Assembly (NCBI GenBank): GCA_039566865.1
Contig: CM076947.1
Coordinates: 23,747,501-23,811,500 of the forward strand
Direction: 5' to 3'
Origin: Aurelia coerulea
Taxonomy: Eukaryota; Cnidaria; Scyphozoa; Semaeostomeae; Ulmaridae
DNA length: 64,000 nt
The notes under the pieces were generated by a model. That model saw only the letters and a list, made by a program, of their open reading frames with translations, did no database searches and was not told the origin of the DNA. The position numbers and the translations under genes are program-made. Below are positions 3,872 to 61,790 of this stretch, piece by piece; the first letter of the stretch is position 1, and the number at the start of each line of letters is the position of its first letter.

Positions 3872-3943
3872 GTGTTGTCTTCAGACAGGAACGTCACAGT
3901 GGTTTCCCTTTCGATCGACCGCCTCTACAAGCAGTCGATGAAA
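3872..3943 (+). CDS. Gene A exon 1 (first visible), 72 nt
   Basis: Acceptor TTCATTGTAG, donor GTAAGT, phase 1 to phase 1. Read in the gene B phase it gives GVVFRQERHSGFPFDRPPLQ and then AVDE, matching gene B GVVIKKDHNRQVTFDRPLMK. The shared FDRP is the strongest point. A longer open frame that starts at the same place in another phase does not align and is a shadow. Confidence 0.85.
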
Positions 3944-6900
3944 GTAAGTAATGTTTCTGCTACAAGTCTGTTATCTACTGGGTGTCACAAAAAGCACATC
4001 CTGTTTAAAAAATCACGAACATTTAATGACAAAGACAATCTTGAAATTTTTCTTATTTTGACAATTAGTTGAAGGACTAAATTGTTTTCCCAGGTAGGAC
4101 AGCAAATTACACTTTTTTGGGGCTGCTTGGTTGATGAAGCATAATGCAAAATGATTGATAATTACCACAAGTAGAAGGCATTGCAATTCTCCAATATTTA
4201 GGTCTTAAATGAAACAGTTACTATCATCTCCTCAATGAAATAGACAAAATCCGCGATATAGATCTTTAGCTTTGTTCTTCTTCTTTCGTTATAAACTCGC
4301 AACTTATCTTATAGGGCAAACTCTTGCCTTGTGCACGCGAAAGGTGGTTTTAAAGATAAGTTATGTGCTTCTATCGAAAGAAGAAGGGTGAATCTAAATT
4401 TCTGCCTAGCGAGTTTTGTTTATTTAATTCAAGAACCGAGAAGTAATTGTTTCATCTAAGCCCAAAATATGCAAGAATTACAATGCCTTCTGCTCTGCTC
4501 CTGAATCAAATAAACAAAATCCGGCTGGCAGAACTTTAGAGTTACCCTTCTTCTTTCGTTATAAGCACATAGTGTCTTTTTAAAACCACCTTTCGCCTGC
4601 GCAAGGCAAGAGTTTGTCCTACTTGTTTCGGGGCAACTTGTGCGGCTTTGTTGTTTTGAATTACTGGTTGAGAGAATTTCGTTTGTTGGCAATCGCTAAT
4701 CGCTTTGAATTGAGGTGTCAATCAAAAGCAACTGATGCTATTGTATTGCAAAATCTGCCCTTGTTGTCAGCAGTAGCTATTTTCTTGAATTCCGGTGTCA
4801 ATCATCAATCAAAAGCAACAGATGCCAGTGTGTTACAAAATCTGTTCTTCTTGCTGGCAAGCTGGTTTAAGCATAGGTCCCAAATCTTTAAATCGCCATA
4901 AAGTGGTGGGTGTAAAATTCTTTGACCTATTTCTTTCAGTTGAATGGCTCGAAAGAAACTTTAGCTACTTACCTATAATTCTACCGTTGGACTTTTCAGA
5001 AATTTGGAATATTTTTCGAGATAACCGCGTATTTTGTAGTCTAACTCATTTGAGGATTTGACGTCATCAAATTCCTAAATTGTAAACCAGAAGAGTGATA
5101 GACTTTTGCTTGATACCATATTGTAGACATTCGTAAACTATGGTTTTCTTGGAAATAATTTCATGTTGCGTCAAACTGTTTAGAAATTACGATGGCTTTA
5201 AGTTTTTTTGAAAATTTTTCTTGAATTCTTCAGAAGGAGAAAAACAATCTAAATCAGAAAATATTGAAGATTTTATTAAAGTCCAACGGTAGAATCATAG
5301 CGAAATAGCTAAAGTTTCTTTGAAGTCATTCAGTTCAAAGAAATAGGTCCTTGAATTTTACACAACCATTTTAAAGATTTGGAACGTATGCTGCTGGTTT
5401 ATGGCTTATTTTATAGATATCATCCTTTTTTGCAGGTTATACAGAAGGAGGAGTTGGGTTCGTAGCTGAAGACCTAGATTTGCGTGAATGCAGAAGCTCT
5501 GACTGGAAAATGTGCAGCTTTTTACGACTTCATTTCAGAAGGCTGAGTCTTAAGTACATGGGAAGATTGCTTCTGAAGCAAATGAAAATGAAAGCAAGAT
5601 TGCAAGAAACGCTCAACCTGGGAACTGATTTAGTTTTTGGCAGTATTATCAAATCTAAAATGAGTGCGAAAAAAGGAGGTGGTCGACTGGTGTTCGAAAG
5701 TGATGTTTGCTTTGCAAGATCCAGTGAATGCTTTCCAGGTTTGCACTGTCATTAAATAAAGCATAGGTTCCAAATCTTTAATTCTGCGTAAAAAGGTGGG
5801 TGTAAAATTCAATGAACTATTTCTTCTAGTTGAATGGCTTGAAAGAAACTTTAGATACTTATCTATAATTCTACCGTTGGACTTTTCATAATTTTTGAAT
5901 ATTTTTGGAAATTACAGCTTATCTTGCATTTCAACTCATTTGAGGATGTGACGTCATCAAATTTCAAAATCATAAACCAGATGAGTGACAAACTTTTTTT
6001 TGATACCATATTGTAGGCATCCATAAACTATGGTTTTCTTCGACATTATTTCATGTTACGTGAAACAGTTTAGCCATTACGATGGTTTTCAGTTTTTCTG
6101 AAAATTTTTCTTGAATTCTTGAAAAAGAAGAAAAACACTCTAATTCTGAAAATATTGAAGATTTCAGAAAATTCCAACGGTAAAATTATAGAGAAATAGC
6201 TAAAGTTTCTTTGAAGTCATTCAGTTCAAAGAAATAGGTCCTTCAATTTTACACCAGCCTTTTTAAACATTTGGAGCCTATGCTATTAAATAATTTTAAA
6301 TTCAAGTGTGTTTGCTCTACCGGGTCAAAAAAAGTTCAAAAGTTTCAAAAGTCGCAGTGCCTAGAGTACTCGATGGATTTGAATGGATCGAAGTTTGATT
6401 GATAGTCGTTTTCTTTGCACTAAATAACTCGTCTGCTCTTTTATATTGCGAAGAAAGCTATTCAAAGAGGGACACGCCCTTCTAAACTCTTTTCTTCATA
6501 ATCCTCACCTCTAGAATTTCCTCGTAAATGCTTTTATATACACCTCGTTGATACTTTAGATTCATTCGAAATCACTCTCTGATAAGGACACGAGTCTGAA
6601 AGGCCTCCGTGTGTTAGAATATATCTTAGTATTTTTGTCGTCCAACCTCTCTCTACATCAAGTTTCTACCGGGTGAGCCAGAAAAAAGTTCCCACTTTTG
6701 AAAGTTCATAGCATCAAGAGTACTAAATTGATTGGAATGAATCAATGTTTGCTTGACAGCCAAAAGACCGAAGTATTTTTGTGATTTTTCTCACGTTCTT
6801 TCGAGCATTGGAAAAATTGATAAATTCAAGCTTACAAAAACTTGATGGTTGCAAAATGACTGAAAAAGGAATATAATGCTTGATCAAATCATAAAGGACT

Positions 6901-9900
6901 CCTCGCTCAGAACAACAGAGAAAATGCAATTTCTCGTGGGTGAGAGATATCGTCTGCACATCTATTGCCATGGGATTGAAAATCTTTAGTATCTGTTTGA
7001 GAATCTATTTCTTGTAACTCTTGAGAGAGGTGAAACGCATGTGCGTATTGTTCTGTGTGAGGAGAGTCCTAACGATTTTATCAAGTGTTTTAGGCCTTTT
7101 TCTGTAATCTTGCAGCCATGAAATTTTTGTAAAGTTGAATTTACCTATATTTGCAGTGCTCGTAAGAAGACGAGAAGAATCACAAATATACTTCGATCTT
7201 TTGGCTTTCAACTAGAATTTCAATCATTCAAATCCACGAAGTACTTGTGGTGCTACGAATTTTAGAAAGTGGGAACTTTTTTCTGGCTCACCCTGTAGTT
7301 ATACCGGGTGAGTCAAAAAAAACGTGGGGTGTTTGGCGGACTGTGACGTTGCTTGTAGCCACCCGATCGTCGTGAAATAAATTTGTCCATGCAGCAAAAG
7401 GTCTAACTTAGATTATAAGGCTAACCTCATTAAAATCGGTCACTTGGTGCATTAGTTAAAACGTATTTTCTTTGTAAGGCCTTGTATGGGAGTCTTGCAA
7501 ACTGATGGAATCTTTAGCCAGCAAGGCCATTCAGCATTTTAGCCTTGCCAAAGTTACAGATACACGTGGTATTATCAGAGGTGAATGAAATAGTTAGGAA
7601 ATAGTGTTTTCTCTCCTGATAATACCACATGTATCTGTAACTTTGGTAAGGCTAAAATGCTGAAGGGCCTTGGCTAAAGATTCCATCAGTTTGCAAGACT
7701 CCCATACAACCCCTTACAAAGAAAATACGTTTTAACTAATGCACCAAGTGACCGATTTTAATGAGGTTAGGCTTATAATCTAAGTTAGACCTTTTGCTGC
7801 ATGGACACATTTATTTCACGACGATCGGGTGGCTGCAAGCAACGTCACAGTCCGCCAAACACCCCACGTTTTTTTTGACTCACCCGGTATATTTTACCAA
7901 GTTTTTGGTGCATCAAAGTTGCAAAAATGTTCTGCCTGATCGCAAGTAATGTTGATGATGATCGTCATAATTATTTTCACTTGAATGGAACGTTTGAATT
8001 ATTCTCAATGAAACTATATGATATTTCAGGCGAATTGCTACTTCTCCAGTGGAACTGGGTAAAGTTTTTCCCAAGATGGAATTGGTTTGCGTTGGGCAAA
8101 AAATCGTGCGTATGCTAGCAGTTGAATGAAAATGTATTTTCTCCATCAAATCAATTTCTCTTTTGTCCCAACCCTTGGTTAAATAATGAACGGTCCCTGA
8201 GTTCGAATGTCATTTCATTGAATATTCTATTTTTCCGTTTTGTCAGGGAAGATATATGATGATGGAACGAACCGAGTGATGTTGGAATTTGGAGGCAGTG
8301 AAAACGACGAATCAAGTGAAATATTAGGGCTGAACTATGTCACATTGAGACCTGTAAAAGGCAAATATGCAATACCCTCTGATCAGAAAATAGAGGTTGT
8401 CGGTAAGTGCTGGCATTTTCTTTAAAGTCTGGCGTTTTGTATGATTGATGATAAAAGGAAAGATTATACTGTCATGAATGGTGTATCGTACTCTTCCACC
8501 ATTTTCGTCTTTTCTTTGCAAAATTACATGTTCAAATAAGTGACTTGTGCTTATTGATCACAGTGGGCACCATTTGGGGGTCATAAGGAAATAGGACTTC
8601 GAAACATGATCACTTGCTGAAATGAAAACTAGACATCCTAAATAGTATATAAATCCAAATATAAATCCAAATATATCGAGAGTTGAAGAAATGAAAGACC
8701 TTGGAGTGGTAATGGATAGCAAGCTAAAGTTCGATAAACATATTGCAGAAATATCTAAAAAAGCCACTGGAGTGCTCGCATCAATCAAGAGAACACTGAC
8801 TTACATAGACAGAAACGTGTTCATTGGTCTTTACAAGAGTCTCGTCAGACCTTTGCTAGAAACATCTGTCTCCGTATGGAACCCGTATATGGTTAAACAC
8901 ATAAAACAACTAGAGGCCGTTCAAAGAAGAGCAACAAAGCTTGTTCGCGGCATCAACCAATTATCATATAATGAAAGATTACAAGCTTTAAAATTACCGA
9001 CTCTTCGGTATAGGAGAAAGCGCGGTGACATGATAACAACTTACAAAATATTTCATGGCCTCGTTGACACTGACCCCTCAAAGTTCTTCAAGATCAACGA
9101 CAATAAGACAAGGGGTCATAAATACAAAATAGTGTTGAGCAAATGCAGATTAGATGTGAGAAAGAACTTTTATTCTCAGCGAATAATAAAAGAGTGGAAC
9201 TGCTTGCCAGCTAACATCGTCGAAGCAAAGGATGTAATAACGTTCGAAAAACTGGGATTCAAAATTCGAATTCAAACTAAACTAGATTAGTAGTCATAGA
9301 CAGTCAGGGTTTTATAGGCCTTGGCCTTCCAGCCCCTTAAACAACATTTATTATTATTATTATTATAATAGTCAGAAAGGGATTAGAATAGACTTTTCTA
9401 GCGTAAAATTAAAATGAAGATTCGATTTTCCTTTGAAATCCTTTTTAAAGGGTTTTAACCTGTATTATGTATTCGGCAAGCGGAGATGACAAATTTTACG
9501 TTGCAGGAAGGAAATAGCTTCCCAACCCTTCCATATCTCATGATTATTGCCACCTAAGGTAGAATTTGATAGCTGGAAACAAGTTCGATTCACAAATGTA
9601 TTCGTTGTTTACATCATGATGTCAGTTCTATGAAAAATGTTTAGCAGCTAAGATTTCTGAATGCCACAGGTGGGACAATGAACCAAAGGTACCGTCTGCT
9701 CAACATATTGTAATTTCAGAAAGGTATATAATTCATAGTTTGCGTTATTCAAGATACTATCTAAAATTTTACACGAAAAAGCAGGAAATATTGTCCCCAG
9801 AATGTATCCTTTTCAATCCCTCTTTCCATTCTGTAGGTAAACTATAAAATTCTACAATTCTGGCAGTATTTTTCCCTTCATATTCGACCTTGAAACTCAT

Positions 9901-12900
9901 AGAAAGTCCGTGTTTTTGACCGACAAAGTTCATAAAGCTCCTCTATGATCAAAAGACAGTTGAGCAATGGAAATAACCAGGTTTTGCGAGATACACAAAA
10001 GTTTTCCAACTTCTCCAGGTTTCCAAGTAAGATAATTTCGGAATGGAGCAGATGGTGCCAGCCTAGTTTCAGGTTCAAGTTCATTCCATTCGGACAGACA
10101 ATGAGGATAAAAAGTAGATTTGAACTTTGCAGTTATTGCCCTCACTTGTTCGATGACGTCAGGTTTGCGAAGAGAGCATTGAAACTGCTGAAGTGATGGA
10201 ATTGGATCCCTTGTACAGTTCGGGGTTAGGTTGTTTACAATTTTAAAGAACAAAATAAGGCGTCTACCCCACCTACGAAGACTGAAAGATTCCCATCCAA
10301 GCTCAGCGTACAACTTTCCTCTGGATGTTCCCCTCCATGTACTGGACACGGCTAAAGCTGCAGAATGTTGGACGGATTCTAGCTTTTCCATTAGATTAGA
10401 CAAGGTGAAATCTCCGCTGAACTCGCATAGCACATAGGTTCCAAATCTTTATTTCGGTGTAAAAAGGTGGGTGTAAAATTCATTGACCTATTTCTTCTGA
10501 TTGAATGGCTTGAAAGAAACTTAAGATACTTATCTATAATTCTACCGTTGGACTTTTCAGAAATTTGGAATATTTATGGAAATTACAGCATATTTTATAT
10601 TTCAATTCATTTGAGGATGTGACGTCATCAAAATTTCTAAATCATAAACCAGATGAGTGACAGACTTTTGCTTGATACCATATTGTAGGCATTCATAAAC
10701 GATGCTTTTCTTCGAAGTTTCTTCATGTTGCAGCAAACAGTTTAGAAATTACGATGGTTGTAAGTTATTTCTGAAAATTTTTCTTGTATTCTTGAAAAAG
10801 AAGAAAACACTCTAATTCTGAAAACTTTGAAGATTTCAGAAAATTCCAACGGTAGAATAATAGAGAATTAGCTAAAGTTTCTTTGAAGTCATTTAGTTCA
10901 AAGAAATAAATCACTCAATTTTACACCAGCCTTTTTAAAGATTTGGAACCTATGCTAACTCGCATAGCTTTGATGGATCGAAATTCGAATTGAAATAAGA
11001 TGAACCAAAACAAGCAAACAAACAAACAAAAATAATGAATATGATTTACTTCTTTGAAGAGCTACGTTCAAGAATGCATGTTGGAACAGATGATGACAAA
11101 GCAATTGAATTCTCCGGTGGCACAGGAAGACAATACATTAAACTCAATGGCAATCGACAAGTAAAATTTGTTGGTGAAAAAAGCCACATGGAGTTCAAAA
11201 AGATATTGAAAGCATTTGGTCGTAGCACACAACACAAACAATTGAAAAAAGCTAATTTCACTGGGCAGGTCGTGGTTGCATACAATTCAGCTGATGAAGG
11301 TACTCTCCATTTTGATATTCCTATTGACTTATGTATAGAATACAGATAATCATACCGGGTGTCTCAGAAAAAAGTACCCCGTTTTGATTGCAAATAGGAA
11401 CAAAACGATTAGATATAGTTATTCTCCGAGGTCGCAGCTAAATGTATCAATCTTCAACTTAGATGCACATACCTTGCATTTAAAAATCGTACACCAAACA
11501 CCGGAGATACAAGTGTGCAAAGTCAAAATTTACAGTGCACCCAAAACCAGAGGTTTTGAAAAAGGGCCTAATCATGATTTGTGTCATGGACAGTTTCTAA
11601 AGCACCTGTAAACTTTAATTTTCAGTTTTTTGCTTTTGAAAAGAATAAAAGACGCACGGGCATGACCCTGAAAAAACAAATATATTAAAAATGTGGTAAA
11701 AATGATAAAGTCGTGCCACATCTCCAAAATAAGCGTGCATGTGCTCCTTTCCTTGTATTTGATACAAAACACTTGGGATGGAATGCAACGCAAAGACCGA
11801 TTCCGCTAAAGAAAAGTCATTTCAAGAACAATTATAATAATGATATAATAATCTTTCATATTTATACAGGTTAATTTGTTCAGTAAATAAGATTACTGTT
11901 ATCAATCAAAGACCTGTATTGAAATACAATTGAAGCAATTCAAGGTATAATTACTTTCAAAAGTAAAACCTAAAGCCTGAAGTTGAAAATTATTGTGCAA
12001 AATAGCTATGTGATGTCAAATCATGGCTAGGCCCTTTCTCAAAACCCCTTTTCAGGTAAAACCACAACCAACATCTTAAAATGAAATTTAGCTTTTTGGC
12101 AATCAAATAAAAAAATGTTGTTGAAAATCGGTTCATTGGTTATGAACATGTAAACAATCAAACAATAATACATCTTATTATATGGCGTTCGAAGATACGG
12201 CTTCTCGGACCGGCAACGGAGCAATCTGATTGGTTCTTGATCGGTCCGCAAAAACCGTATTTTCGAAGGCGTATTTTCGAAGCCGTATTGGAACGGGCGT
12301 TGCCTTAAAAGTCAACAACAAGTGAAGAAGCTTCTCGTGTAGGCTTATGCTGCAAGAATTGTCAGCCAAAGTTTAGCTTATTCCTCGAAAAATTCTTTAC
12401 TGTAAACTTTGAAGACGAACTTGCAATCATACACAAGAAAAATGTCAATGTAGCTAACGTCGAAACGTCCAACTACAGTGATGCGCAGGATCAAAGACAC
12501 AACAAAAATTACAATACAATACAATGAACAATGTTCTCAAAAGGTTCTGCCATATAATAAAGCCTTTATTAAACGATTACTTGATCCATGCTGGAAAATA
12601 TTTGGACCTTAGTTCCTTGTACGGACCTCACTGCGTTCGGTCCGTACGTCAAACTGCGGTCCAAATATTTTCCAGCATGGACCTCGTAATCGTTTAATAA
12701 CCGCATAATTTTGGGACACCCGGTATGTGGGGTGGAAGTTCTGATTTTGACTACTTTTACCCTCAGAGTGGGGCACTGTGATGATAGCATAAGTTTGAAA
12801 GGCGTCAGTGTGCCAATAACCTATTGGACTTTTTTCGTTTCTTGCACTTGTCATTTCATTGTCATTTTATCGTACCAACTTTATCAAATATATAATCTTT

Positions 12901-23853: not shown

Positions 23854-23910
23854 CGAAAAGATAATTGGAATTAACCTGACAGTTAACTAACTTTGCTCAA
23901 AGTAACTTTA

Positions 23911-23989
23911 AATAAACTGCATAATCTTAAATGTTATTTGATGTAATCTAATATCTTTCTATGTTACAAGGAATCAAATTGACAATAAA
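23911..23989 (+). terminator. Polyadenylation signals of gene A
   Basis: AATAAA at 23911-23916 and again at 23984-23989, 58 and 131 nt after the stop. Either could serve; cleavage sites are not determinable. Confidence 0.6.
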
Positions 23990-25119: not shown

Positions 25120-25915
25120 CGTTTGTCTTCAGTAAGTTAGGTGCGATTTGCCTTGTGATTTTTTTTGCTTGGAACAAGCTGATGGAACAAGCTGGATTCA
25201 GAAATTAGACTTGCACCTTCCGTTGCTGCATTCAAGACAAAGCTGCTATCCAAAATTCGCCCCCTGCCAAAATCAGTCTTCAGGATACATGACCCAACAG
25301 GTCTATCTTATCTTACACAACTTCGGGTTGGTCTCAGTAAATTGAACTTTCACAAAATCAAGCATAATTTCAGAGATACCATAAACCCAATGTGCCCAAC
25401 CAATGATGGCATTGAGGACACGGAACACTTTTTGTTGCTCTGTTCTCCCTTTGAAGTATTACAAAGAGACCTTCTCGCTGGAGTTTCCTCTTTATTACGA
25501 CCACATGGATTAACCAATCTTTCAAATGATGTTCTACTAAAGATTTTATTGTATGGTGATAACGATCTTCCAGATGATCTTAATAAAAACATCATTCTTT
25601 TAACTCTACGTTTTATCCATAAAACTGGCCGATTTGATTAGCAAGTCCCTAAATCATGCAACCACCATCTCTCTTTTAGTAAGCGCTATTTTCTTTTTTT
25701 TTCTTTTTTTTCTCTTTCTTCTTTCTCTAGTTGTTACGTATAGTGCTATGATCGTATTTTCTATTTTATGTTGCCGTAAAGTAGTCGTTGCTTTTCGCTC
25801 CTAATGGTATTGTTTTAGTAGTAGGGTATAGTATTTTGTAAGTAGTGTAGTTAGTAATTTGTTTTGTAAGCTTTTAATGGAATGTAAAAAAATAAAATAA
25901 TTTTTTTTGCTCACC
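25120..25915 (+). mobile_element. LINE 3' end with C-terminal zinc-finger-like motif
   Basis: Conceptual reading, one frame from about 25195: WNKLDSEIR-like start, IHDPTG..YLTQLRVGLS, LNFHKIKHNF, then CPTNDGIEDTEHFLLLC. The C-x9-H-x4-C pattern is the usual end of many LINE polyproteins. The ORF closes at 25641, followed by a pyrimidine-rich 3' region and an A-rich end (AAAAAAATAAAATAA, 25888-25902). No RT core, so 5'-truncated. Confidence 0.85.
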
Positions 25916-28054: not shown

Positions 28055-28151
28055 ATGTTGCTGTGTTTTCTTATCGTCGTCGCCTTTTGCTTCACTGACC
28101 TCGCAGTTAGCAATGGAGCCACCCACAAGGAAAGACAAAAACGTTCCTCAG
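28055..28151 (+). CDS. Gene B exon 1: signal peptide and RQKR site
   Basis: ATG at 28055 opens a 20-residue hydrophobic leader (MLLCFLIVVAFCF..), followed by polar NGATHKERQKRSS. An upstream ATG at 28048 is out of frame and stops after 16 codons, so 28055 is preferred. Donor GTAAAT, phase 1. Confidence 0.85.
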
Positions 28152-52100: not shown

Positions 52101-55100
52101 GTGGTTGTAGGGAAGGTCATATGTAGTTTTACCTCCTTACAACGTTACTGGTTACAACGTTACTGGTTACAACGTTACTGGTTACAACGTAAGAAACCTA
52201 TATCATGTTGTAATTTTAACTTCCTTAACATTCCTGGAAATTATGTTGATCAAATCTTTAAAAAGGTCGGTGTAAAAGTCTATTACAGTTTTCTTTGAAT
52301 TAAATGGCTTGGAGGGAACTTAGGGGTTTTAGCTGTAAATCTGCCATGGAAATTTATTGATATCTTGATTACTTTCAAAATCATGGCATTTATCAAATTT
52401 GAGGCTATGACGTCGTCAAATTTCTAAATCCTGAACCAGAAAAGCTACATATTTCTGCTTGCCACCATATTGTAGACCTTCATAGACTATGGTTTCTTGA
52501 AGGCTATATCATGTTTTCTATATTGGTTTAGGATTTAAGATGATTTGAATTTTTTCGAAAAAAATCAAGATATCAAGAAATTTCCAAGGCAAATTTACAG
52601 CGAAGTACCATAAATTTCTTTCAAGCCATTAAATTCAAAGAAAAATGTCCTGCAACTTTACACCCACCTTATAAAAGATTTGAAAGATTTGAGCCCTATA
52701 CTGATCAGGAGAAAGTATAGGAAAAGAACGACTAGGAATATAAACTTTTCTTGTTTTTTTGTCATTCTGATTTGCTATTTTTGAACAAAAGTGCTGAAGA
52801 TCATCTGATTTCTTTCTGTTCATGATTAACGCCTTGCTATGAACTGTATTTTGCAAGGCTTTTCAAGAGTTTCTTTCCTTTTACGCTGTTTTCAAATGTC
52901 TGTATTTTGTTAACATACCCAATGTAATGTAAATCTACTGACAATATTTTGTGTATCAACTCCTATGCTGGAATGTCTACAAAGAATATCTCACATTATC
53001 CCTTTCAGTGTCAATGCCAGGCGTAGAGTGGAAGCAAGATTGCGTAACTGCAGCACAAGGAGAAAAGAACATGAAATGTATGACATGGAGTGAAGACAAA
53101 GAGAAAGTCGTTAATGTCATGTGTGTATTGAAATGCGAAGCAAAGAAAATAAGTGCCTCTGGTGTGGCATCTGAAGACGTGAAGCAAATCAGGGTAGGAT
53201 ATGCCAAATTTGTATTAGTTTTCTCCTAAAGGACAGATCCGTCAACTAAAGAAGCCTTTTACATCCGATAGGGTGGGGGTATGCTCAATAAATGGAAAAT
53301 CTTTAGTAACCCTGGAATTTTATATAGGTGGGGGGAGGTTGATAAAGAGGGGGCTTATTTAGAATTTTGACTCAGAAGGGAGGGGCTTATTAGAGAGGGG
53401 GTTTACTAGAGCTTTTACGGTAGTGTTTGCTCTTTTTGTTTCAAATATTTTGTAGAAATAACGAATCATAATCTCTTACGCAATAAAGAACCATGAAGCT
53501 TTTGCTCTTCCATCTAGGTCCTCGTAAACAGATACAGAGAAATGAAGCTCATGGCTGAGAACGTTGGAAAATTAATCCAACTTATAAGAGAAGCTAGTGA
53601 GATCGCCCAAAGTGCCAAGAGGCTTGTCAACAACAATGCAAATATTGATGAAGATATGACTGATCTGTTGAGTCAGCCTGAAGGTGGAAATATGGTTGAA
53701 ATAAGCAAGTTTCTGGTCGATGAAAAGCTAGTAACACTACATCCGCCCTGCCTGCCATTCCAACTCAACTTCATTCTCAGCACGAAATCCAGGAAATCTA
53801 GGAACGTCAAGCATGACATTTGTTTCAACGGAGAATTCTGGATGAATGTTGGCGTACGGATATTGAAATCATCCTATCCATCGGTTGATAATCTTTTCAA
53901 GGCTCTCGACGAGGCTGAGCTGCGGTATGTGCAAATCAATGCCACTAAGAAGAGTCTCAGACGTGTGCAACATGACATCGAAAAGGAATCATCAAAACGA
54001 GGTCAAGTCCCAGAGCCAAAGCGAGATTTAGTTGAAAATCAGCTGATGCAGTTTGCAGAGAGGAGAATCCCTAAATTCACATCAAAGGGAGACAAGACAA
54101 TCATGGCATTCGCTCATTACTCCCCCTGGGCAACTGCCAAAAGATCTAATCCATTCTCTACAAGTCAGCTGCCTCGATCTGGTCAGAAGAAGTACAACTT
54201 TACGGCTACTAAAGGTTAGCCATGCTTCCTTTCCGCCATTTGCTCTGTCCATTTGGGAAAAACTTATGTATCCAAAACCTGCTGATACCATGCTTTGTAG
54301 ACGGTTGTCACTTAGAGGAATTGAGTCCATATAAATAGCTGAGCGTTAACGCTATGCTGACAAACTGCTGACGGCCCTTTGTTATCGCACAATTGTGCTA
54401 AAGTCATTAGTAGTGGAGACCAGAGACGTATTAATCCTTGCATTATTCTTAATCCTTGCATTATTAAGAAGTCTTTGGTCTCCACTACTAATGCCTTTAG
54501 CACAATTGTGCGATAACAAAGGGCCGTCAGCAGTTTGTCAGCATAGCGTTAACGCTCAGCTATTTGTATGGACTCGATTCCTTTAACGCACAAAAATTTG
54601 AAGAAGGTCGATAGTTTTGCAATATTTTGCTATACAACTAACAAGCCCAGATAAAACTAGTTTTTATTAAGTTTGTTATGAACTTCGAGTCAAAAACGAC
54701 CTCTGCTTGTTGTGGAGACTTGTAAGTCTGATACTTGTCATTTGCTTCATAGTTTGAGAAAGTTTTTACAGGATTGCATTGAGTTATAGAGCTTCAGATT
54801 TATGAGTTGAATCAGGGGATAAAACTGAAATTTTCATGTTATTTTTTAAAAATCTTTACCAAAGATAATTTGAAGTTCCATTGAGAATGACGAGAGATCA
54901 GTAACAGAATTCATAACAAAGACTAACATGTGTGCACAGTTTGGTCCTTGAAGCCTTTATTCCTCTTAGAATGTACCATTGTACCAATTTATGAACAATA
55001 AACATGACATTTGAGGGGCTCTGTTAGATTGATGCCTCCTTTAGAATCTTGTGTCACCATACAACATACGAATTCATTGATGGTGTGGCTGGGGGTGTGG

Positions 55101-55240
55101 CCAAGCGGTCAATGCGCAGTGTTACGAACCTTGTGAGGTTTGCCTTTGTGGATTGGAGCCGCGTCACTACAAACAACAGTTAACGGAAAATTCAGCTGTT
55201 TATGCTTAAATCAGCTGTATTATCGACGAATAAATGTTAT

Positions 55241-55271
<31 letters not shown>

Positions 55272-58200
55272 ATTGGTTGATCGATCGATTGATTGATTGA
55301 TTGATTGATTGATTGCTTGTTTGCTTGCTTGCTTACTTGATTGGTTGATTGATCGATTGGTTGATTGGTTGGTTGATTTCAAATATTTGAATTGAAAGAT
55401 CTGTAAATCATCTCTGACTTATGTGATTTAGAATGTTCAATCCTTTTTGACACGTCTTCACACCTTGAAACGTTTCCTTTTTCATAGATGCAACTGCATG
55501 TCAGCAAAGCAGAAGAGTCATTGCCGAATACAAGGATATAGCTGATGGTCTTGATAGAATTTCCGAGCATTATCACAATGGCAAGAACTTACTGGGAAGG
55601 AGCAAAATTTCTATCCAGAAGGATCTCGTAAATTCTTATGGCGAAATCATGAAAATGAGTATGTTTCTATCAAATTTACTTGTCCTTTACGCTTCAATGT
55701 TGGTTTTTCGTTTATTTTCCTGGGAAATCTATTTGTCACGATAAGGGTTCTTTTCCTTGAAATAAAATACTAGTTACATTGCATTTAGTTAACGGAGATA
55801 AATAGCTGACTCAAGAGCTCAATATGCAAGTCTAGGATTGGCCTATTGTATTTGATGATTTCGACACCTTCGCGCATATTGTTTAGCTAAAGGAACAGTA
55901 GCTTTAGATTTCACGAAAGTAACACTGGCAAAAAATGCCAGAGGTACTTGGGACCAAAAATATGGAGTAGCCTCTCTTCTGATTTAAAATCCACATGCAA
56001 TACCAACTCGTTCAAACACAAGATCAAAGACATTTTTTTCCAAAATATACAGAGAGAAGAAAACGACATTCTTCTCTCATATTCATGATTTCGGCCTTAA
56101 TAAATTACGCTTTATCTAAAAGCACACTTACATCTATTAATTATTATTTTTTTGCAACCACCTCTAAGGGGACCAATAATGCCATCCCTACCACTATAAA
56201 TTGGGGGTGATTTTAACTTGTATTTATTAACGCTGTATTATGTAAATTGTATCGTATTTATTTCATCATATTTTGAACTTTCTAACTTTTTACTTTTGTG
56301 GCAAATTTAAACATACATGCATACATAGCATGTATGAGCGCGTTCTTAATCCTATTTTTAGATTATGTCCACGTTGCTTTGTTCATTCACTTTACGTTGC
56401 TGATAAGATAACAAACATTACGTAGAACTAGCGAGATCCGTATAAAACCATCAATGATTCCAAACACTTTTCAAGATGCCGCTGCAAGTAGCTACAATGC
56501 TCTTCCTGGTGATATCAAACAGGAGACAAATTATAACAAGTTTTGTAGTGATGTTAAGACATTCTTGATGAAGAAAGCAAAGGACTCATTAAATCTTTTT
56601 AACTTATTGAATTTGACTTTGTAATATGCTTATCAATTGTTTTTCAGGTAATTGCTTTAACTTTGTAAAATAGTCTTGTCTTTAATTTTTAGAGCTGAAG
56701 AGCCACACTTGTAGTGGATATGCTCACTTATGCCATATAATAATAATAACGTTGCACCAGATGAGAAATGAACTTGCTCCTTTTGCAATATCAGTTAAAT
56801 CGATTTTAGTTTCAATGCAGCACTACCATTTAAATTGGTTTCTTCTTATCATGAAATCACTAACGCCGATTTTTTATTACAGTGAACAAGACGTCGCTCT
56901 CTTCATATGAGCAACGTGATATGCTCTACTGGTATGAATATACGAGGAAAGGTAGGTAAATCAGAGTTTTCATTTTTACTTTTTTGATCATAGTTGACTC
57001 ATCAATCCACAAGAACCGCTTCTCGTGGGCGAGGGCCTTGGCAAATGTCTACAAATCAAACTGAAAAGAAAAATAATTGCACGATTTTAGTGATAGTTTC
57101 TGGTTATAGTTTAAGATACAAAATATACCGGGTGACCCAGAAAAAAGTGACCCAACGCAATCTGTTACAGAAAATTAAGTAACTGGACGATTGAAATGCT
57201 TCAAACGTTCTTCTGTCGCTAAAAGACTAGCCTTTGCTATGAGTATTTTTCGCAACTTTTTACGTCACGGTAAATTTCCAAAATTAAGGATTTCGAGGAA
57301 AAGGGTATGCCTGAAATCCTCAAAAGTCTTCAAAAACAGGGGATCGATTTACAGCCATTTCAGATCGTCAAAGCAATGCAGAGCGCGTTTCATTTCAACA
57401 TGGGAATAGTTAACCCAGTTGGAAATCTTCAGAGCAAGTTTATAGTCCCTAGGTACTTGAAAATGTTCTCAAGCAGAGTAAAACATGCCCCTCGTTGTTT
57501 TGAAGATCTGAAATGGCTTCAAATCGATCCCCTGTTTTTGACGACTTTTTGAGAATTTCAAGCCTGCCTTTTCCTTCAAAATCCTTAATTCGGGAACTTT
57601 CCCGTGATCTAAAAAATGCTAAAAATACTCATAATGTAAGCTGGTCTTTTAGCGACAGAACAACGTTAAAAATATTTCAATCCGCAGCTTACGTTTTTTT
57701 CTATAACAGATATCGTTGGGTCACTTTTTTCTGGGTCACCCGGTATGTGATAGTTTCTGGATGTCAGAAACTATCACGAACGAGTCGAAGCTGCAGAGAA
57801 CAGCATTCGAAGGCCACAAAGGATGCTGGTCAGTAAAGGGTCTTTAAATGTCATCAATTCTTCTCCTGAAAGTGGCAAGGGAGAGGCTGCTGTAAAACAA
57901 ACATCATCTTCAAGCTATTTCCACTAGGTCCACGAAAGGATATCGCCTTTGCCCGTTGAAAGGCGGTGGGGGGAGTGGCCGAGCAGTTTATGCAGTTTTC
58001 GTTAGGTGACTGAAGTTAAGCTCGGTCGAGTGAGGTCAAACTCCGGATGGGTGACCTCTCAGAGGCCTGACCTCGCAACTCACTTCGCCGTCCTTCGGAA
58101 GGGACGTTAAACTAGGGGTCCTATGCCTGGATGCGGCAAGCAATTCCTCTCAGCCCACTTAAAATAAATTACTGAAGAAAATGTCGTCTTTTAATGTTAG

Positions 58201-59861
58201 GGGGTTTAACAAATTGTACATTTATATACATGCATACATTTGTATTTGTTCAGGCAGGCCAGAAATGGGCAGCTAAAAGCTGATGTGGGCTTGCCATCTA
58301 GCTAAACCTTGTTCAATTTATATATAATAGTTAAAATCCAATTTGTTTTAAGGATTTCGTAAGAAGTATCCTACTGATACTATATATGGTCTTTCTTCTT
58401 ATTTCTATTGAAAACTGTTCCCTTATTAATTGATATACTGTTTATAGTCTTTTCATTCTTTATATTATTCTTAAATATCCCCTTACTTGCTGATAACTTA
58501 ACTCCATCAGGGAGTGAGTTCCACAATGCTGGCCCTCTAAATGCCAGAGTGTCTCTGTGTATCTCTTTCTTGGGTCTTATAACTTCAAAATCATTTGCTG
58601 ATCCTTTATTTATACATGGTTTGAATAGATTCAGTATCCTGGGGTCGGTGTTTTTCTTGCATACCGGGTGTCCCAAAATGATGTATTATCGTTTGATTGC
58701 TTACGTCCGATTTTCAAGAACTTTATTTTATCCGATTGCCGAAAGGCTAAATTGTATCAAAAGATGCTGCTTGTTGTTTTACGACGATTTTTTCATGTTG
58801 AAAAGAAGATTGATAAACCTGCTCAAATTCAAGCCTTAGATGGCATGAAAAGAAATGGCCTACCTTTCCCTTCAATATTTAGATGTGATGCAAAAGGCTG
58901 AACTCATATTCATATTCTCTGAATTCAGTACTGAATTCGTATTCTCTGGACGACATATAAGTTCAGCCTTTTGTATCACATCTAAAATGTTGACTGGAAA
59001 ATTAGGCCGTTTCTTTTTCATGCTTTTTTTTCATGCTTTCTAAGGCTTGAATTTTAGCAGGTTTATCGATCTTCTTTTCGACATTAAAACATCGGCTTAA
59101 AACCACAACGAACATCCTCGAATACAATTTAGCCTTTCGGCAATCGAATAAAACAAAGTTTTCGACAATCGGTTCATTGGTTATGGACATATAAGCAATC
59201 AAACGATAATACATCATTTTGGGACATCATTTTGGGACATCATTTTGGGACACCCGGTACAAAAACCTCATTGCTTTTGAAATGACCCTGTGGATTATTA
59301 TGATGAAGATCATTCATATTTCAGGAATGGGTGACTACTTGGAGACGTTTTCAAACCGACTCTCAGAGCATAACAAACGAGGTCTTGCTTTCATGAGAAG
59401 TGAATTATCGTCATTTTATGGCGACCAGAATTTCGTTGATTCTTTGCATGAAATAGGACACAATTCCTTCACTCGTTCGAACATTCCAGAGCATAAGAAA
59501 GAAAAACATGCTGATATGTTGGGGCTTGTGTCAAAGGTTTGTGAAATTTTGAAAATTGTTTACCTTCAATCTCGTCCTCATCCAAAATTTTATTTTTTTC
59601 TGCTTTTGTTATGACTATTTTTCAATTTTTCGAGCCTCCCCCGATTGTTCCTATCCCCGATTATTACTACATCGAACCATTTCCAACCCCCCCCCGTTTA
59701 TTCGGTACTTGAGAGTAACAAATATATATAACTCTATATTACAGGAGCTTCGCCGTGTTCTTTATGCTAAAGATGCAACGATTGAAAGTGCGGGAGCTTC
59801 AGTGGAGAGAATTAATGCCGATGTCAATAAACTTTACCAGTCTGCCATTGCATGTTATTAA
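28055..59861 (+). CDS. Gene B: complete gene for an uncharacterised secreted protein of about 1,570 residues
   Basis: Exons: 28055-28151, 29424-29843, 30464-30847, 31814-32064, 32474-32825, 33128-33335, candidate 34354-34399, 36435-36506, 37846-38148, 40516-40665, 44746-44985, 47293-47575, 49056-49230, 50848-51121, 53009-53193, 53518-54214, 55488-55658, 56883-56951, 59325-59536, 59745-59861. It starts with MLLCFLIVVAFCFTDLAVSN, a signal peptide, then KERQKR, a furin-like site. Exons 2-6 are beta-strand rich with several NxT sequons (NLT, NTT, NRT), fitting an extracellular glycoprotein. Exon 14 onward is coiled-coil and helical with conserved Cys. All junctions keep frame except between 33335 and 36435, where one short exon is unresolved. 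I know no named domain that matches. Its neighbour gene A is a paralogue. A role is not inferable beyond secretion. Confidence 0.88.
28862..29350. mobile_element. L-family foldback element
   Basis: Left arm (minus-sense L): GGACAGATTTTGTAACAC, ATTCAAAGCGATTTGCGATT, TAGCTAGCTCACTTGTTGTG. Right arm (plus sense) from 29218: ATGCCCGAGGTAGATGTGCA, CTTCTTTCGATATAGG, GCTAGCTACCTGGG. Gene B intron 1. Confidence 0.72.
29424..29843 (+). CDS. Gene B exon 2, 420 nt
   Basis: Acceptor CTTTCTTTCAG, donor GTGGGT, phase 1/1. EFPSFQEMDSGSLASVKIQN leads into four cysteines (TDCTF, NGCETT, GLCSMK, NKCSG) and a beta-like tail ending LRGMTSVG. Start of the mature protein after the RQKR site. No gene A counterpart in the window. 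Confidence 0.88.
30201..30463. mobile_element. Hammerhead-like foldback insertion with duplicated splice acceptor
   Basis: Inverted arms (AAAACATAAATTCATTTG..TTCGACTT, 30217-30260, and the complement to 30401) enclose two opposed copies of CTGATGAAGAGTTATGCTC with GAAACGTCGTTAAT. CTGATGA plus GAAA is the hammerhead ribozyme core, known from Penelope-type elements. A 17-bp sequence, TAATTTTCCTTCTRTAG, occurs at 30201-30217 and again at 30447-30463, where it is the real acceptor of exon 3. This looks like a target-site duplication. Confidence 0.75.
30464..30847 (+). CDS. Gene B exon 3, 384 nt
   Basis: Acceptor TTTTCCTTCTGTAG, donor GTAATT, phase 1/1. NNHAVPMEVSKTDGTDYDVE, FSLSTLDVNVFLAKFG, KVKGVFSPGGGFEIYAKGK and ILALYR. 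Alternating beta pattern; no cysteine. Confidence 0.9.
30848..31813. other. Gene B intron 3
   Basis: 31265-31290 (CACACGATACCGGCACAACT) has a degenerate inverted match at 31540-31585 (TTTGTGCCGTATCTG, TATCGTGTGAACG), suggesting a decayed foldback element of about 330 bp. The open frame 31176-31385 lies inside it and is not a gene. Confidence 0.5.
31814..32064 (+). CDS. Gene B exon 4, 251 nt
   Basis: Acceptor CCATTTTCAAG, donor GTAAAA, phase 1 to 0. GQSVPDTIMSLTGVAVPDLA, NQAAITLASKPIVNINSEEV and ending RDKQNQ. Confidence 0.9.
32474..32825 (+). CDS. Gene B exon 5, 352 nt
   Basis: Acceptor TTTTTTGTTGCAG, donor GTAAAT, phase 0 to 1. KADRILFHCDVGKDQLTW, FVDVDFIRSSRRAQVSFNLT and LMNTTMTLFTDARGG. 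Two NxT sequons. Strong beta periodicity. Confidence 0.92.
32951..33110. mobile_element. J-type MITE, left end only
   Basis: TACCGGGTATCCCAAAAAATG at 32951 (first 19 bases diagnostic). No right end is seen before exon 6 at 33128, so it was truncated, or the right end drifted beyond recognition. Confidence 0.5.
33128..33335 (+). CDS. Gene B exon 6, 208 nt
   Basis: Acceptor TTTTCCCTTAG, donor GTGAGT, phase 1 to 2. DELVDVTVEQQAHRTNVLAV, TLRNRTQASPLQ and EASFEWHRLLK. Ends in phase 2, which exon 36435-36506 cannot accept. Confidence 0.9.
33989..34323. mobile_element. O element: poly-G / poly-C terminated foldback
   Basis: Starts with a run of 14 G followed by TACTTGAC and ends CTAAGTACCCCCACCCCCAC then a C run. 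GGGGGTACTT is mirrored by AAGTACCCCC. The interior repeats a GCTCTAGAAAAAATG..TACCC motif. A related degenerate GGGGGGAGGGG..TACTC pair is at 33400-33600. The G run could form a G-quadruplex. Confidence 0.7.
34354..34399 (+). CDS. Gene B candidate exon 7 (46 nt), squeezed between two MITEs
   Basis: Acceptor TTTATTCATTATTTCAG accepts the phase 2 of exon 6 and gives (K)FKGYALLEGKPNLEL, open and beta-like. The donor would be GTATAC at 34400, shared with the first bases before the A2 element (34403), or GTAAGC inside A2 at 34410. Both give phase 0, but the next exon needs phase 1. The O element ends 30 bp before it. Either a further small exon exists or A2 damaged the original donor. Confidence 0.5.
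34403..35042. mobile_element. A-family MITE (A2)
   Basis: TACCGGGTAAGCCAGAAAA to TTTTCTGGCTCACCCGGTA. The interior is in opposite orientation to A1 and A3. Its first bases overlap the donor of candidate exon 7. The open frame at 34591-34971 is arm sequence. Confidence 0.88.
35045..35870 (-). mobile_element. LINE C-terminal pieces, partly inverted
   Basis: Minus strand 35140-35045 reads KAWNDIPANIREIQTLRRF, and 35860-35640 reads WLSVKNLIRFDRSVIAYKIL and LNKLCPESL..ARPNFKGNS, both standard LINE ends. 35240-35317 repeats the second piece on the plus strand, so 35240-35317 and 35627-35700 are inverted copies (CTATTTCCTTTGAAATTGGG and its complement). Typical of twin-priming or a rearrangement. 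Confidence 0.75.
35925..36190 (+). mobile_element. L-family copy
   Basis: ATGCCCGAAGTTGATGTGTA, CTTCTTTCGATATAAGCTC, CAGTCGCTAATCGCTTTG, GAGGTGTCAATCAAACTC, ending ACAAAATCTGCGCTTG. This is the simplest single-arm copy of L in the window. Confidence 0.7.
36435..36506 (+). CDS. Gene B exon 8, 72 nt
   Basis: Acceptor TATATCTACAG, donor GTGAGT, phase 1/1. GVVIKKDHNRQVTFDRPLMK. The homologue is the first visible gene A exon, same length and phase. Confidence 0.88.
37257..37793. mobile_element. I-family MITE
   Basis: TACCGGTTGTCCCCAAAAC to TTTTGGGACACCCGGTA, with arms AAGTACTCCCG and GGAGTACTT. 52 bp upstream of exon 9. Confidence 0.8.
37846..38148 (+). CDS. Gene B exon 9, 303 nt
   Basis: Acceptor AAATTCCTTGCAG, donor GTAAGT, phase 1/1. 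SFREGGIGFIASQLDVRSC, WEMCTFLKLHFNRFMDIEY, ending VENNVFSEWYT. Same length as gene A exon 2. Confidence 0.93.
38174..38793. mobile_element. A-family MITE (A3)
   Basis: TACCGGGTGAGCCAGAAAA to TTTTCTGGCTCATCCGG. Same orientation as A1. Starts 26 nt after exon 9. A1 lies in the homologous gene A intron but 928 nt from its exon. Confidence 0.85.
39108..39706. mobile_element. E-family MITE (E1)
   Basis: TACCGGGTGCGCCAAAATA to TATTTTGGCGCACCCGGTA, with GCACGTTTG arms and an inner pair TTTTTTCATCGTTTT. The second copy is at 60221. Confidence 0.9.
39716..39895. repeat. GC-rich foldback
   Basis: GGTTTTGGTCGGCGACC and GGTCGCCGACCGAAAC form the stem; CTTAGTGCGCAT-type inner arms surround TCTCTAGCAACAGAGA. 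Much more GC-rich than its surroundings. Directly abuts E1. Confidence 0.75.
39900..40515. other. End of gene B intron 9, nothing recognised
   Basis: AT-rich, no inverted termini, no coding motif. Confidence 0.5.
40516..40665 (+). CDS. Gene B exon 10, 150 nt
   Basis: Acceptor TTCTTTTTTGCAG, donor GTATGA, phase 1/1. GKIFDDGSNKIILDFER to IPSNEPVNRVG. Confidence 0.9.
41150..41620 (+). mobile_element. LINE 3' end
   Basis: FSYRGAKLWNSLPAETKQAT is the classic penultimate LINE segment. The 3' region follows with GGCCCCTTGAAAATCAGCC and an A-rich (AATATGAA) tail ending at 41615. Gene B intron 10. Confidence 0.82.
41703..41820 (-). mobile_element. SINE tail fragment (5S-like family)
   Basis: On the minus strand CCTTCGGAAGGGACGTTAAA, GGGGTCCCATGCC, GGCATGCATAGTGGGCC and CCCACTTAAAATAAATTA, as at 21903 and 57969. 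The head is missing. Confidence 0.85.
42219..43119. mobile_element. M-family MITE (M4) interrupted by K5
   Basis: TACAGTAGTGTCCCGCATAT at the left, ATATGCGGGACACTGCTGTA at the right. About 520 bp of K5 sits inside, so the original M4 was about 370 bp. The order of events is clear: M4 first, then K5. Confidence 0.88.
42369..42891. mobile_element. K-family foldback element K5, nested in M4
   Basis: AGCATAGTTTTCAAATC to GATTTGGAACCTATGCT with GCATATGAT duplicated on both sides (9 bp). Inverted relative to K2-K4. TGACGTCA at 42695. Confidence 0.9.
43322..43353. repeat. Poly-G/poly-C hairpin
   Basis: A run of 11 G, TGCTTTCCA, then a run of 8 C. Potential hairpin or G-quadruplex inside gene B intron 10. 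43360-44700 is otherwise unrecognised apart from a short repeat shared with 24400-24460. Confidence 0.75.
44746..44985 (+). CDS. Gene B exon 11, 240 nt
   Basis: Acceptor TTCTTCATCAG, weak donor GTTTGA, phase 1/1. EFSSRLHVG, ELSGGTSRQYLYLNEG, FDGQVVVVFNSVDEG. Confidence 0.92.
44998..45436. repeat. Foldback repeat flanking TGGGTA motifs
   Basis: GAGGAATTGTTTTGGG, TTGGTACCGAAGAGG at the left and CCTCTTCAGTACCAACCCC-like sequence at 45413-45432 at the right (GGGGTTGGTACYGAAGAG in mirror). An inverted repeat of about 430 bp next to M5. Confidence 0.6.
45439..45784. mobile_element. M-family MITE (M5), complete and short
   Basis: TACAGTAGAATCCCGCATAA to TTTTATGCGGGTTTCTACTG TA. 346 bp, the shortest intact M copy. 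Confidence 0.88.
45803..46336. mobile_element. K-like subfamily element (K7)
   Basis: AGCATAGGGCTCAAATC to GATTTGAGCCCCATGTT. The flanks CCCTAAAGT and GTCTAAAGT agree at 7 of 9 bases. The interior differs from K2-K6 and the TGACGTCA site is mutated. 52230-52706 belongs to the same subfamily. Confidence 0.7.
46653..47104. mobile_element. A-family MITE (A4) within a longer palindrome
   Basis: TAACGGGCGAACCAGAAAA to TTTTCTGGTTCACCCGTTA. The flanks continue the inverted repeat outward: GATATTAATCGGAAAG at the left, CTTTCCGATTAATATC at the right. So either the terminal inverted repeat was extended or the element entered a palindrome. Confidence 0.8.
47293..47575 (+). CDS. Gene B exon 12, 283 nt
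   Basis: Acceptor TCTCATTTTCAG, donor GTACGT, phase 1 to 2. AWNLTDYNILAKKGLHFHGK, LQLPVLRYGEVAH and LGAQDQHLEG. One NLT sequon. Confidence 0.92.
47588..48243. mobile_element. L-family foldback, most complete copy
   Basis: GACAGATTTTGTAAGACAAT, GCGATTAGCGATCGCAGAC, ATCGAAAGAAGAAGG at the left. A 56-bp unit with CATCTACCTCGGGCATTTTA is duplicated at 47818 and 47874. The mirrored right arm runs to ATTGTGCTGCAAAATCTGTC. Confidence 0.8.
48244..48400. mobile_element. N element end
   Basis: TTACCGTAAAAGCTCTATTA followed by AGCCCCC, then GGCTTATTAGGGAGG. The mirror end (AGAGCTTTTACGGTA) is found only at 53415-53430. Incomplete. Confidence 0.5.
48515..48690. repeat. Foldback with AAAGAAAATAAGTTAA arms
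   Basis: CCTGCAAGAGAAACAACG, CCGAAAGGAAAGAAAATAAG, GCAATAAAGAGC at the left, and their complements to 48690. 48690-48800 continues with sequence related to 27430-27580. A further inverted pair (TTAAAGACAAATGACGG and CCGTCATTTGTCTTTAA) surrounds 48814-49005. Confidence 0.7.
49056..49230 (+). CDS. Gene B exon 13, 175 nt
   Basis: Acceptor TATTTTTCACAG, donor GTAATG, phase 2 to 0. GFCDTIGVRGKFSVTTVSR, YLFKVKGNMYKEVDDVEV, KPADFIFQ. Confidence 0.93.
49352..49876. mobile_element. K-family foldback element K6, 9-bp target duplication
   Basis: AGCATAGGTTCCAAATC to GATTTGGAACCTATGCT flanked by GAAGCTATA on both sides. TGACGTCATC at 49541. Same orientation as K2-K4. Confidence 0.92.
49965..50530. mobile_element. 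H-family MITE (H2)
   Basis: GGTTTGAAAGGCCACTGCTC, CCTGAATATCAAAGCAATG, CCCGTGGATATGGGAGA, ending ACTCACCCGGTTTTTTATTG. An uninterrupted reference for the LINE-split copy at 61978. Confidence 0.78.
50848..51121 (+). CDS. Gene B exon 14, 274 nt, coiled coil
   Basis: Acceptor ATTCTTCCCTGCAG, donor GTGTGA, phase 0 to 1. YKIDLLTQATQNVNSQFRK, TATLLTQTEAEQKGYTTNM, ending DISTDCLDKCKT. Same length as gene A exon 7. Confidence 0.93.
51145..51618. mobile_element. M-family MITE (M6)
   Basis: TACGGTAAAACCCGCATATA to TTATATGCGGGTTTTGTG. Starts 24 nt after exon 14. The interior is close to M2 (gene A intron 9), a different intron, so both moved recently. Confidence 0.88.
52137..52192. repeat. 15-bp tandem repeat, 3.6 copies
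   Basis: TTACAACGTTACTGG repeated head to tail without mismatches. 51620-52136 holds nothing recognised. Confidence 0.93.
52230..52706. mobile_element. K-like subfamily element (K8)
   Basis: ATCAAATCTTTAAAAAGG to GATTTGAGCCCTATACTG. Related to K7; no clear target duplication; TGACGTCGTC replaces the octamer at 52408. Confidence 0.65.
53009..53193 (+). CDS. Gene B exon 15, 185 nt, four-cysteine exon
   Basis: Acceptor TATCCCTTTCAG, donor GTAGGA, phase 1 to 0. VSMPGVEWKQDC, MKCMTWSEDKEKVVNVMC, VLKCEAKKIS. Confidence 0.95.
53270..53432. mobile_element. N element, opposite end
   Basis: G-rich (TAGGTGGGGGGAGG, GGAGGGGCTTATTAGAG) ending AGAGCTTTTACGGTA. Mirrors the start at 48244. Lies between exons 15 and 16. 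Confidence 0.5.
53518..54214 (+). CDS. Gene B exon 16, 697 nt
   Basis: Acceptor TCTTCCATCTAG, donor GTTAGC, phase 0 to 1. VLVNRYREMKLMAENVGKLI, DLLSQPEGG, PPCLPFQLNF, DICFNGEFW, HDIEKESSKRG, YSPWATAKRSNPF and a terminal YNFTATKG (NFT sequon). Confidence 0.97.
54315..54582. mobile_element. Foldback element with near-perfect arms of about 118 bp
   Basis: AGGAATTGAGTCCATA..AGCGTTAACGCT..GTTATCGCACAATTGTG..TAGTGGAGACCA at the left, with complement at the right. The loop has a tandem AATCCTTGCATTATT. Starts 101 nt after exon 16. Single copy in the window. Confidence 0.9.
54600..55085. other. Gene B intron 16, unresolved part
   Basis: AT-rich sequence without termini, repeats or coding motif. Confidence 0.5.
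55092..55378 (+). mobile_element. tRNA-like SINE with (GCTT)n(GATT)n tail
   Basis: The head GGGTGTGGCCAAGCGG resembles a Ser/Leu-type tRNA start with an A box TGGCCAAGCGG, and GATTGGAGCC is a weak B box. The tail is a mixed tetranucleotide tract (GCTT, GATT, GATC) from 55240 to 55375. Ends about 110 bp before exon 17. Confidence 0.75.
55488..55658 (+). CDS. Gene B exon 17, 171 nt
   Basis: Acceptor CCTTTTTCATAG, donor GTATGT, phase 1/1. DATACQQSRRVIAEYKDIAD, SIQKDLVNSYGEIMKM. Confidence 0.95.
55905..56330 (+). mobile_element. LINE 3' end
   Basis: RYLGPKIWSSLSSDLKST, CNTNSFKHKIKDIFF: a typical LINE C-terminus, followed by AT-rich 3' sequence. Confidence 0.82.
56425..56760 (+). mobile_element. 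LINE 3' end (second type)
   Basis: IPNTFQDAAASSYNALPGDI, KQETNYNKFCSDVKTFLMKK, in the position of the WNSLP.dIK segment; stop at 56622. Ends in a TAATAATAATAA tract at 56739-56750. Confidence 0.7.
56883..56951 (+). CDS. Gene B exon 18, 69 nt
   Basis: Acceptor TTTTTTATTACAG, donor GTAGGT, phase 1/1. NKTSLSSYEQRDMLYWYEYT. Confidence 0.93.
57126..57745. mobile_element. D-family MITE
   Basis: TACCGGGTGACCCAGAAAA to TTTTCTGGGTCACCCGGTA. Arms of about 300 bp containing GGGGATCGATTTACAGCC and its mirror. Confidence 0.9.
57969..58190 (+). mobile_element. SINE with 5S-rRNA-like promoter, complete copy
   Basis: CTGAAGTTAAGC (5S A-box-like) and CCGGATGGGTGACCTC (5S C-box-like) at 58008-58055, preceded by a tRNA-like GGGAGTGGCCGAGC. 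The conserved tail CCTTCGGAAGGGACGTTAAA follows and it ends AATAAATTACTGAAG. Gene B intron 18. Minus-strand relatives are at 21903 and 41703. Confidence 0.85.
58300..58660 (-). mobile_element. LINE 3' end, minus strand
   Basis: Minus strand: NDFEVIRPKKEIHRDTLAFR, GPALWNSLPDGVKLSASKGI. Typical RGPALWNSLP motif. Confidence 0.85.
58662..59259. mobile_element. C-family MITE (C2) with triplicated right terminus
   Basis: TACCGGGTGTCCCAAAATG at the left. At the right end CATCATTTTGGGA is repeated three times before CACCCGGTA. The arms include GCCGAAAGGCTAAATTGTAT and its mirror, and a second inner pair with GAATTCAGTACTGAATTC at the centre. Confidence 0.9.
59325..59536 (+). CDS. Gene B exon 19, 212 nt
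   Basis: Acceptor CATATTTCAG, donor GTTTGT, phase 1 to 0. GMGDYLETFSNRLSEHNKRG, FVDSLHEIGHNSFTRSNIP. Confidence 0.95.
59745..59861 (+). CDS. Gene B exon 20, terminal coding exon
   Basis: Acceptor CTATATTACAG, phase 0. ELRRVLYAKDATIESAGASV, VNKLYQSAIACY and a TAA. No canonical AATAAA nearby; ATTAAA at 60165 is the closest candidate. Confidence 0.93.
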   Translation, partial: ELRRVLYAKDATIESAGASVERINADVNKLYQSAIACY

Positions 59862-61570: not shown

Positions 61571-61790
61571 ATAGAATTCGAGTGGAGAGGGCAGCGGCAC
61601 TCAAGCATACTTGAAGGCTGGTGAGGTAGAATTCAAGTGGTAAGGGCAGCGGCACTCAAGCATACTTGAAGGCTGGTGAGATAGAATTCGAGTGGAGAGG
61701 GCAGCGGCACTCAAGCATACTTGAAGGCTGGTGAGATCGAATTCGAGTGGAGAGGGCAGCAGGACCCAAACATACTTGAAAGCTGGTTTG
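61571..61790. repeat. 55-bp tandem repeat, 4 copies
   Basis: Units start at 61571, 61626, 61681 and 61736 with TAGAATTCGAGTGGAGAGG and CTTGAAGGCTGGTGAG. Copies 1-3 differ at few positions; copy 4 is more diverged. Confidence 0.95.

Follow-up and report, generated by a model that had tools for sequence, protein, structure and literature searches.

The window, i.e., the whole 64,000-nucleotide stretch of Aurelia coerulea DNA analysed here, carries on its forward strand two genes, here designated A and B, that are tandem paralogues (Table 1). A preliminary description had held that thirteen consecutive exons of the one match thirteen of the other in both order and phase, and this is borne out. 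All 13 exon pairs are present at the lengths then given, with phases equal at every junction between them. To locate the 12 internal exons in A and in B, intervals of those lengths lying between an AG and a GT were scanned for and, where several intervals of the same length passed, that interval which matches the paralogue was chosen. The thirteenth shared exon follows an AG acceptor and ends with an in-frame stop (position 23853 in A and 59861 in B).

Table 1. Genes, exons and palindromic elements of the window (positions are numbered from its first letter).
Feature	Position(s)	Strand	Details
Gene A, last 13 exons	3872-23853	+	984 codons plus stop; homologues match most of these exons
Gene B, exon 1	28055-28151	+	start codon, signal peptide (MLLCFLIVVAFCF...), RQKR-S site
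Gene B, exons 2-6	29424-29843, 30464-30847, 31814-32064, 32474-32825, 33128-33335	+	matched by tblastn with P0001 and P0002
Gene B, exon 7	34354-34399	+	K/FKGYALLEGKPNLEL, donor gtatac; matched by tblastn
Gene B, expected site of ~45 missing codons	34400-36434	+	segment present in P0001-P0005
Gene B, last 13 exons	36435-59861	+	981 codons plus stop
Shared exon 1	A 3872-3943; B 36435-36506	+	72/72 nt
Shared exon 2	A 5436-5738; B 37846-38148	+	303/303 nt
Shared exon 3	A 8247-8402; B 40516-40665	+	156/150 nt
Shared exon 4	A 11060-11299; B 44746-44985	+	240/240 nt
Shared exon 5	A 12908-13193; B 47293-47575	+	286/283 nt
Shared exon 6	A 14599-14773; B 49056-49230	+	175/175 nt
Shared exon 7	A 16737-17010; B 50848-51121	+	274/274 nt
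Shared exon 8	A 17645-17829; B 53009-53193	+	185/185 nt
Shared exon 9	A 18620-19316; B 53518-54214	+	697/697 nt
Shared exon 10	A 21157-21327; B 55488-55658	+	171/171 nt
Shared exon 11	A 22293-22361; B 56883-56951	+	69/69 nt
Shared exon 12	A 22986-23197; B 59325-59536	+	212/212 nt
Shared exon 13	A 23737-23853; B 59745-59861	+	117/117 nt
Palindromic MITE-like element	34403-35044		~642 bp; its first base is the fourth beyond gene B exon 7
Related palindromic copies	6665-7298; 38172-38796; 46653-47104		the last in two pieces

Alignment of the translated shared exons (MAFFT) gives 500 identities between A and B over 980 aligned residues, and none of those 980 pairs joins residues from differently numbered exons. 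Identity by exon ranges from 30% (exon 1) up to 74% (exons 8 and 11), and only four gap runs are present, i.e., two compensating single-residue gaps in exon 2, one of two residues in exon 3, and one of a single residue in exon 5. In BLASTP, the longest shared exon by itself reaches an E-value of 1.6e-103, which places the match far beyond chance. Most of the blocks are recovered in order, as well, when the left part of the window is compared with the right as stop-to-stop translations.

Gene A is incomplete at the 5' end, its beginning lying outside the window: No further upstream exons were found in the window, with relatives aligning by tblastn to nothing left of 3872. Gene B has seven exons upstream of the shared thirteen (28055-34399), with its start codon within the window. 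At positions 3-2742, probably within an intron of gene A, a 24-bp unit, GGTAGAATTTGTTTTTCTTCCTCA, is repeated in tandem, amounting to 57.6 copies of a 48-bp form or ~115 units. Many of these units resemble a splice acceptor followed immediately by donor-like sequence, with CCTC[A/C/T]GGTAG occurring 92 times and CCTCAGGTAG 50 times. Elsewhere, open frames at 8646-9290 and 25183-25641 resemble, by eye, pieces of reverse transcriptase genes of the LINE type. Downstream of gene B (61569-61787) a 55-bp unit is repeated four times in tandem, and a search of the whole window against Rfam returned no match at gathering scores.

The preliminary description had further proposed that the duplication is old and its products strongly constrained. 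Over 980 codons (Nei-Gojobori), pS is 0.72, for a dS of ~2.4 that is near saturation, with pN of 0.32 and dN of 0.41. With nonsynonymous change so limited while synonymous sites approach saturation, the tandem duplication is old, as judged from these codons, and the coding parts of both copies are under strong purifying selection. That insertions and deletions have been purged, also proposed, is nearly so between A and B, given just the four gap runs, but does not extend to their relatives: One (P0006, below) has an 11-column insertion in the region of shared exon 3 and four others (P0002-P0005) have ~11 additional residues in the region of shared exon 9, such that some places do tolerate indels. 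The equal lengths of A and B exons reflect mostly conserved intron positions and are not, by themselves, a sign of unusual structure.

The introns themselves are unequal in length, and 7 of the 12 intron pairs lack similarity. For introns 1, 3, 4 and 5, the two genes match best in opposite orientation. Intron 2 of both genes contains the same palindromic element but at different offsets, 929 versus 26, and therefore these likely represent separate insertions. The claim that no intron insertion is shared is borne out, with the intron 2 element as the one reservation. That element is ~640 bp with TACCGGGTGAGCC-like ends, and several of its copies are intronic.

A phmmer search of a 5.8-billion-protein collection yielded, among 7,692 candidates, six relatives of gene B with E-values from 0 to 1.1e-280. 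These are 36 to 47% identical to gene B and cover 60 to 100% of it, five of them 94 to 100%. P0001 (JGI; 1,618 residues) is 42% identical, P0002 through P0005 (EukProt) are 36 to 38% identical, and P0006 (EukProt Seg1167.1, ‘GoldUCD’; 953 residues), which we take to be from an Aurelia genome, is 47% identical over 60% of gene B. It starts late, and its gene model is probably incomplete. Gene B and all six share the same order of conserved blocks and the same cysteine columns, as seen in a 7-row alignment not including A, which aligns over its 13 exons only. A tree built from 8 rows places A, B and P0006 together at a support of 81/84, which is below the starred level, so that the duplication may lie either before or after the divergence of the P0006 line. 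Those relatives named gene8625, gene8626 and gene8627 are 75-91% identical to one another in their C-terminal region and, as their numbers are consecutive, a tandem array is suggested, such that tandem copies of the family may recur in another species.

A lineage-restricted orphan family had been named as what would favour novelty and, to the extent that six relatives exist, the family is not confined to the Aurelia coerulea genome, though matches so far are all to presumed jellyfish sequences. ‘Jellyfish-only’ nonetheless is a provisional description since the word-seeded searches used here lose true relatives. A search with profile A2 had four proteins among the matches listed, all of them known members, with P0002 and P0003 not among them. 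Of 7,997 candidates scored with an N-terminal profile, none reached an E-value of 1, full-length members being too long for that search. There could, that is, be missed members in corals, hydroids or other animals. The family appears to be unnamed, although public protein collections already contain its members, with one labelled a ‘hypothetical protein’. No paper on these proteins was found by identifier or among the titles and abstract starts listed. Lineage-restricted secreted orphan families as such are of a known kind.

Gene B differs from P0001-P0005 in one respect that bears on whether it is intact. These five relatives possess, between the equivalents of exon 7 and the 72-nt exon, a segment of ~45 residues (P0001 ~585-629, counted by eye) that was not found in B. 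P0006 begins after this segment, and gene A's counterpart lies outside the window. In the interval of gene B preceding 36435, the best score for the segment in three frames was 40, while 30 shuffles gave a mean of 34.1 and a maximum of 45. Candidate exons of 90 to 189 bases between AG and GT scored there, as values lacking a control, at best 15 where the phase fits and 21 irrespective of phase. The window is free of N. As exon 7 moreover closes in phase 0, whereas phase 1 is required by the next known exon, at 36435, there is no in-frame join from 34399 to 36435, and the 20-exon model of gene B given in the preliminary description therefore does not represent a finished gene.

Gene B consequently may be damaged or shortened after exon 7, or at the site of the segment it may be damaged, misassembled, spliced via another acceptor, or strongly diverged. 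One can imagine, in particular, that only one member of the tandem pair is functional, with B decaying or shortened following insertion of an element beside exon 7 and loss of the segment. That the segment was not found, its score falling below the shuffle maximum, is in keeping with such decay, as is the palindromic element's beginning at the fourth base past exon 7. The remainder of B, however, displays no stop or frame break across the 13 downstream and 6 of the upstream exons, and the segment could instead be strongly diverged, misassembled or bypassed through another acceptor, leaving a single functional copy a somewhat unlikely explanation.

The suggestion that A and B belong to no named family is supported within Pfam, NCBIfam and PDB, with nothing reaching either curated cut-offs or an E-value of 0.001. 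Against Pfam, pieces and whole chains (with gene A represented by pieces holding single exons, from part of its 13) had a best E-value of 0.018, inconsistent between members. All NCBIfam matches fell below curated cut-offs (best E-value of 0.012). Among PDB sequences, the best E-value was 1 for gene B and 0.32 for profile A3, to a streptococcal protein, with none for profile A1. Foldseek, using the low-confidence model of P0006 (mean pLDDT of 51.8), had 0 matches at E ≤ 0.001. Of the searches by HMM and by structure that the preliminary description had called for, the former yielded no confident match to a known domain, and the latter nothing usable. Nor were internal repeats seen among 55 pairs of A1 slices compared using hhalign (best probability 8%). 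Alpha-2-macroglobulin or another thioester protein was considered too, with no MG or thioester domain seen among Pfam matches. Vitellogenin_N was likewise absent from Pfam matches at E-values up to 10 for gene B and the 7 members of A1, a range over which HMMER filters drop most matches above ~0.1.

As to the protein itself, gene B and all five relatives possessing an N-terminus, P0001-P0005, display a signal peptide and then ‘KRS’ (P0006 starts late and the N-terminus of A is outside the window). Sixteen columns, among those with at least five residues and with A absent from the alignment, are cysteine in every row having a residue there. Outside of the signal peptide, the 19-residue hydropathy mean is at most 1.51 among the best three windows listed per protein, such that there is no clear membrane span other than the signal peptide. 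Family members, on this reading of their sequences, are likely secreted proteins of ~1,600 residues.

The AlphaFold2 model, that is, of P0006 predicted with six rows, has antiparallel strands at ~219-385 and then long helices at 387-454, 523-573, 654-694, 768-825 and 829-876. P0006 starts near P0001 residue 681, placing the first 680 residues outside of this model, and a model of gene B exon 3, from that earlier part, is unusable (pLDDT of 41.1). Hydrophobic periodicity in the alignment is strand-like at P0001 901-950 and 1001-1050 and, past 1050, helix-like in the majority of blocks, a change which coincides with the model's switch from strands to helices. This periodicity is modest, with at most 28% of windows per block passing the strand threshold, and in blocks 1151-1200, 1251-1300 and 1451-1500 helix windows are 10% or less, some blocks displaying neither pattern. 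With low confidence, then, the protein may contain a strand-rich stretch (P0001 ~890-1055) followed by a helical C-terminal third.

What such a protein might do can be addressed tentatively at best. As these proteins are large, secreted, disulfide-bonded, conserved and tandemly multiplied, and as no enzyme or toxin signature was found, the simplest reading is that A and B are paralogues of an undescribed secreted family supplying an extracellular structural or coat protein with disulfide bonds, a reading that we hold as possible but short of probable. The chain would enter the secretory pathway, a furin-like protease would cut off a short propeptide at KR-S, and the disulfide-bonded protein would be deposited extracellularly as a component of mesoglea, mucus or egg envelope, its helical part perhaps driving assembly while the remainder might bind other matrix molecules. 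A matrix role is a guess, with the failure of any matrix domain (collagen, thrombospondin, ZP or other) to appear among Pfam matches standing against it. Gene B, given its missing segment, could no longer be making the full protein.

The evidence does not set this structural or coat reading strongly apart from two others, namely that the protein carries a lipid or ligand or that it belongs to the capsule. A secreted carrier, like large lipid transfer proteins and for instance provisioning eggs or larvae, would hold lipid against sheets with one hydrophobic face, with helices regulating binding. Large size, secretion, and long antiparallel strands and then helices in the P0006 model agree with this, as does the strand-like hydrophobic periodicity of P0001. 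With the strand signal modest, however, the model poor, Vitellogenin_N unreported by Pfam at E-values up to 10 in gene B or its relatives, and no credible PDB match by profile, a carrier is unlikely. Another idea is of a venom or nematocyst protein, cut at KR-S in the manner of other cnidarian capsule proteins, which are processed at KR-type basic sites, and then released on discharge. A secretory start with a basic processing site could be so explained, and the family is possibly lineage-restricted as well as tandemly expanded. Nevertheless, at ~1,600 residues the protein differs in size from typical venom peptides, no toxin domain was matched at significance, and those structural matches which fall on the long helices, some to toxins, are generic, so this role seems very unlikely.

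What sets jellyfish bodies apart may stem from secreted proteins restricted to their lineage. A ~1,600-residue family with ~36 to 51% identity across separate lineages and 16 invariant cysteine columns is a tractable example, and one that would extend the domain libraries searched, which lack it. Returning to the structural or coat reading, its boldest form, which we consider decidedly improbable, is that these are jellyfish-only giant extracellular proteins of unseen fold, of medusozoan origin and repeatedly multiplied in tandem, that form a major part of the matrix or coat of the medusa. One study of the Aurelia life cycle (PMC4334923) describes many of the abundant transcripts as encoding unknown proteins in all stages except the polyp.

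The A and B family resembles large lipid transfer proteins such as vitellogenin and apolipoprotein B in being large and secreted and in having long strands and helices, but is without their Vitellogenin_N match. Large lipid transfer proteins, too, arrange their strand-rich and helical parts in a different order from the A and B family. From cnidarian matrix and capsule proteins the family differs in its lack of matches to collagen, thrombospondin, ZP or other matrix domains. A short propeptide ending in KR is found in those cnidarian proteins, and what the family has in common with them is the same beginning, i.e., a signal peptide and then a basic processing site.
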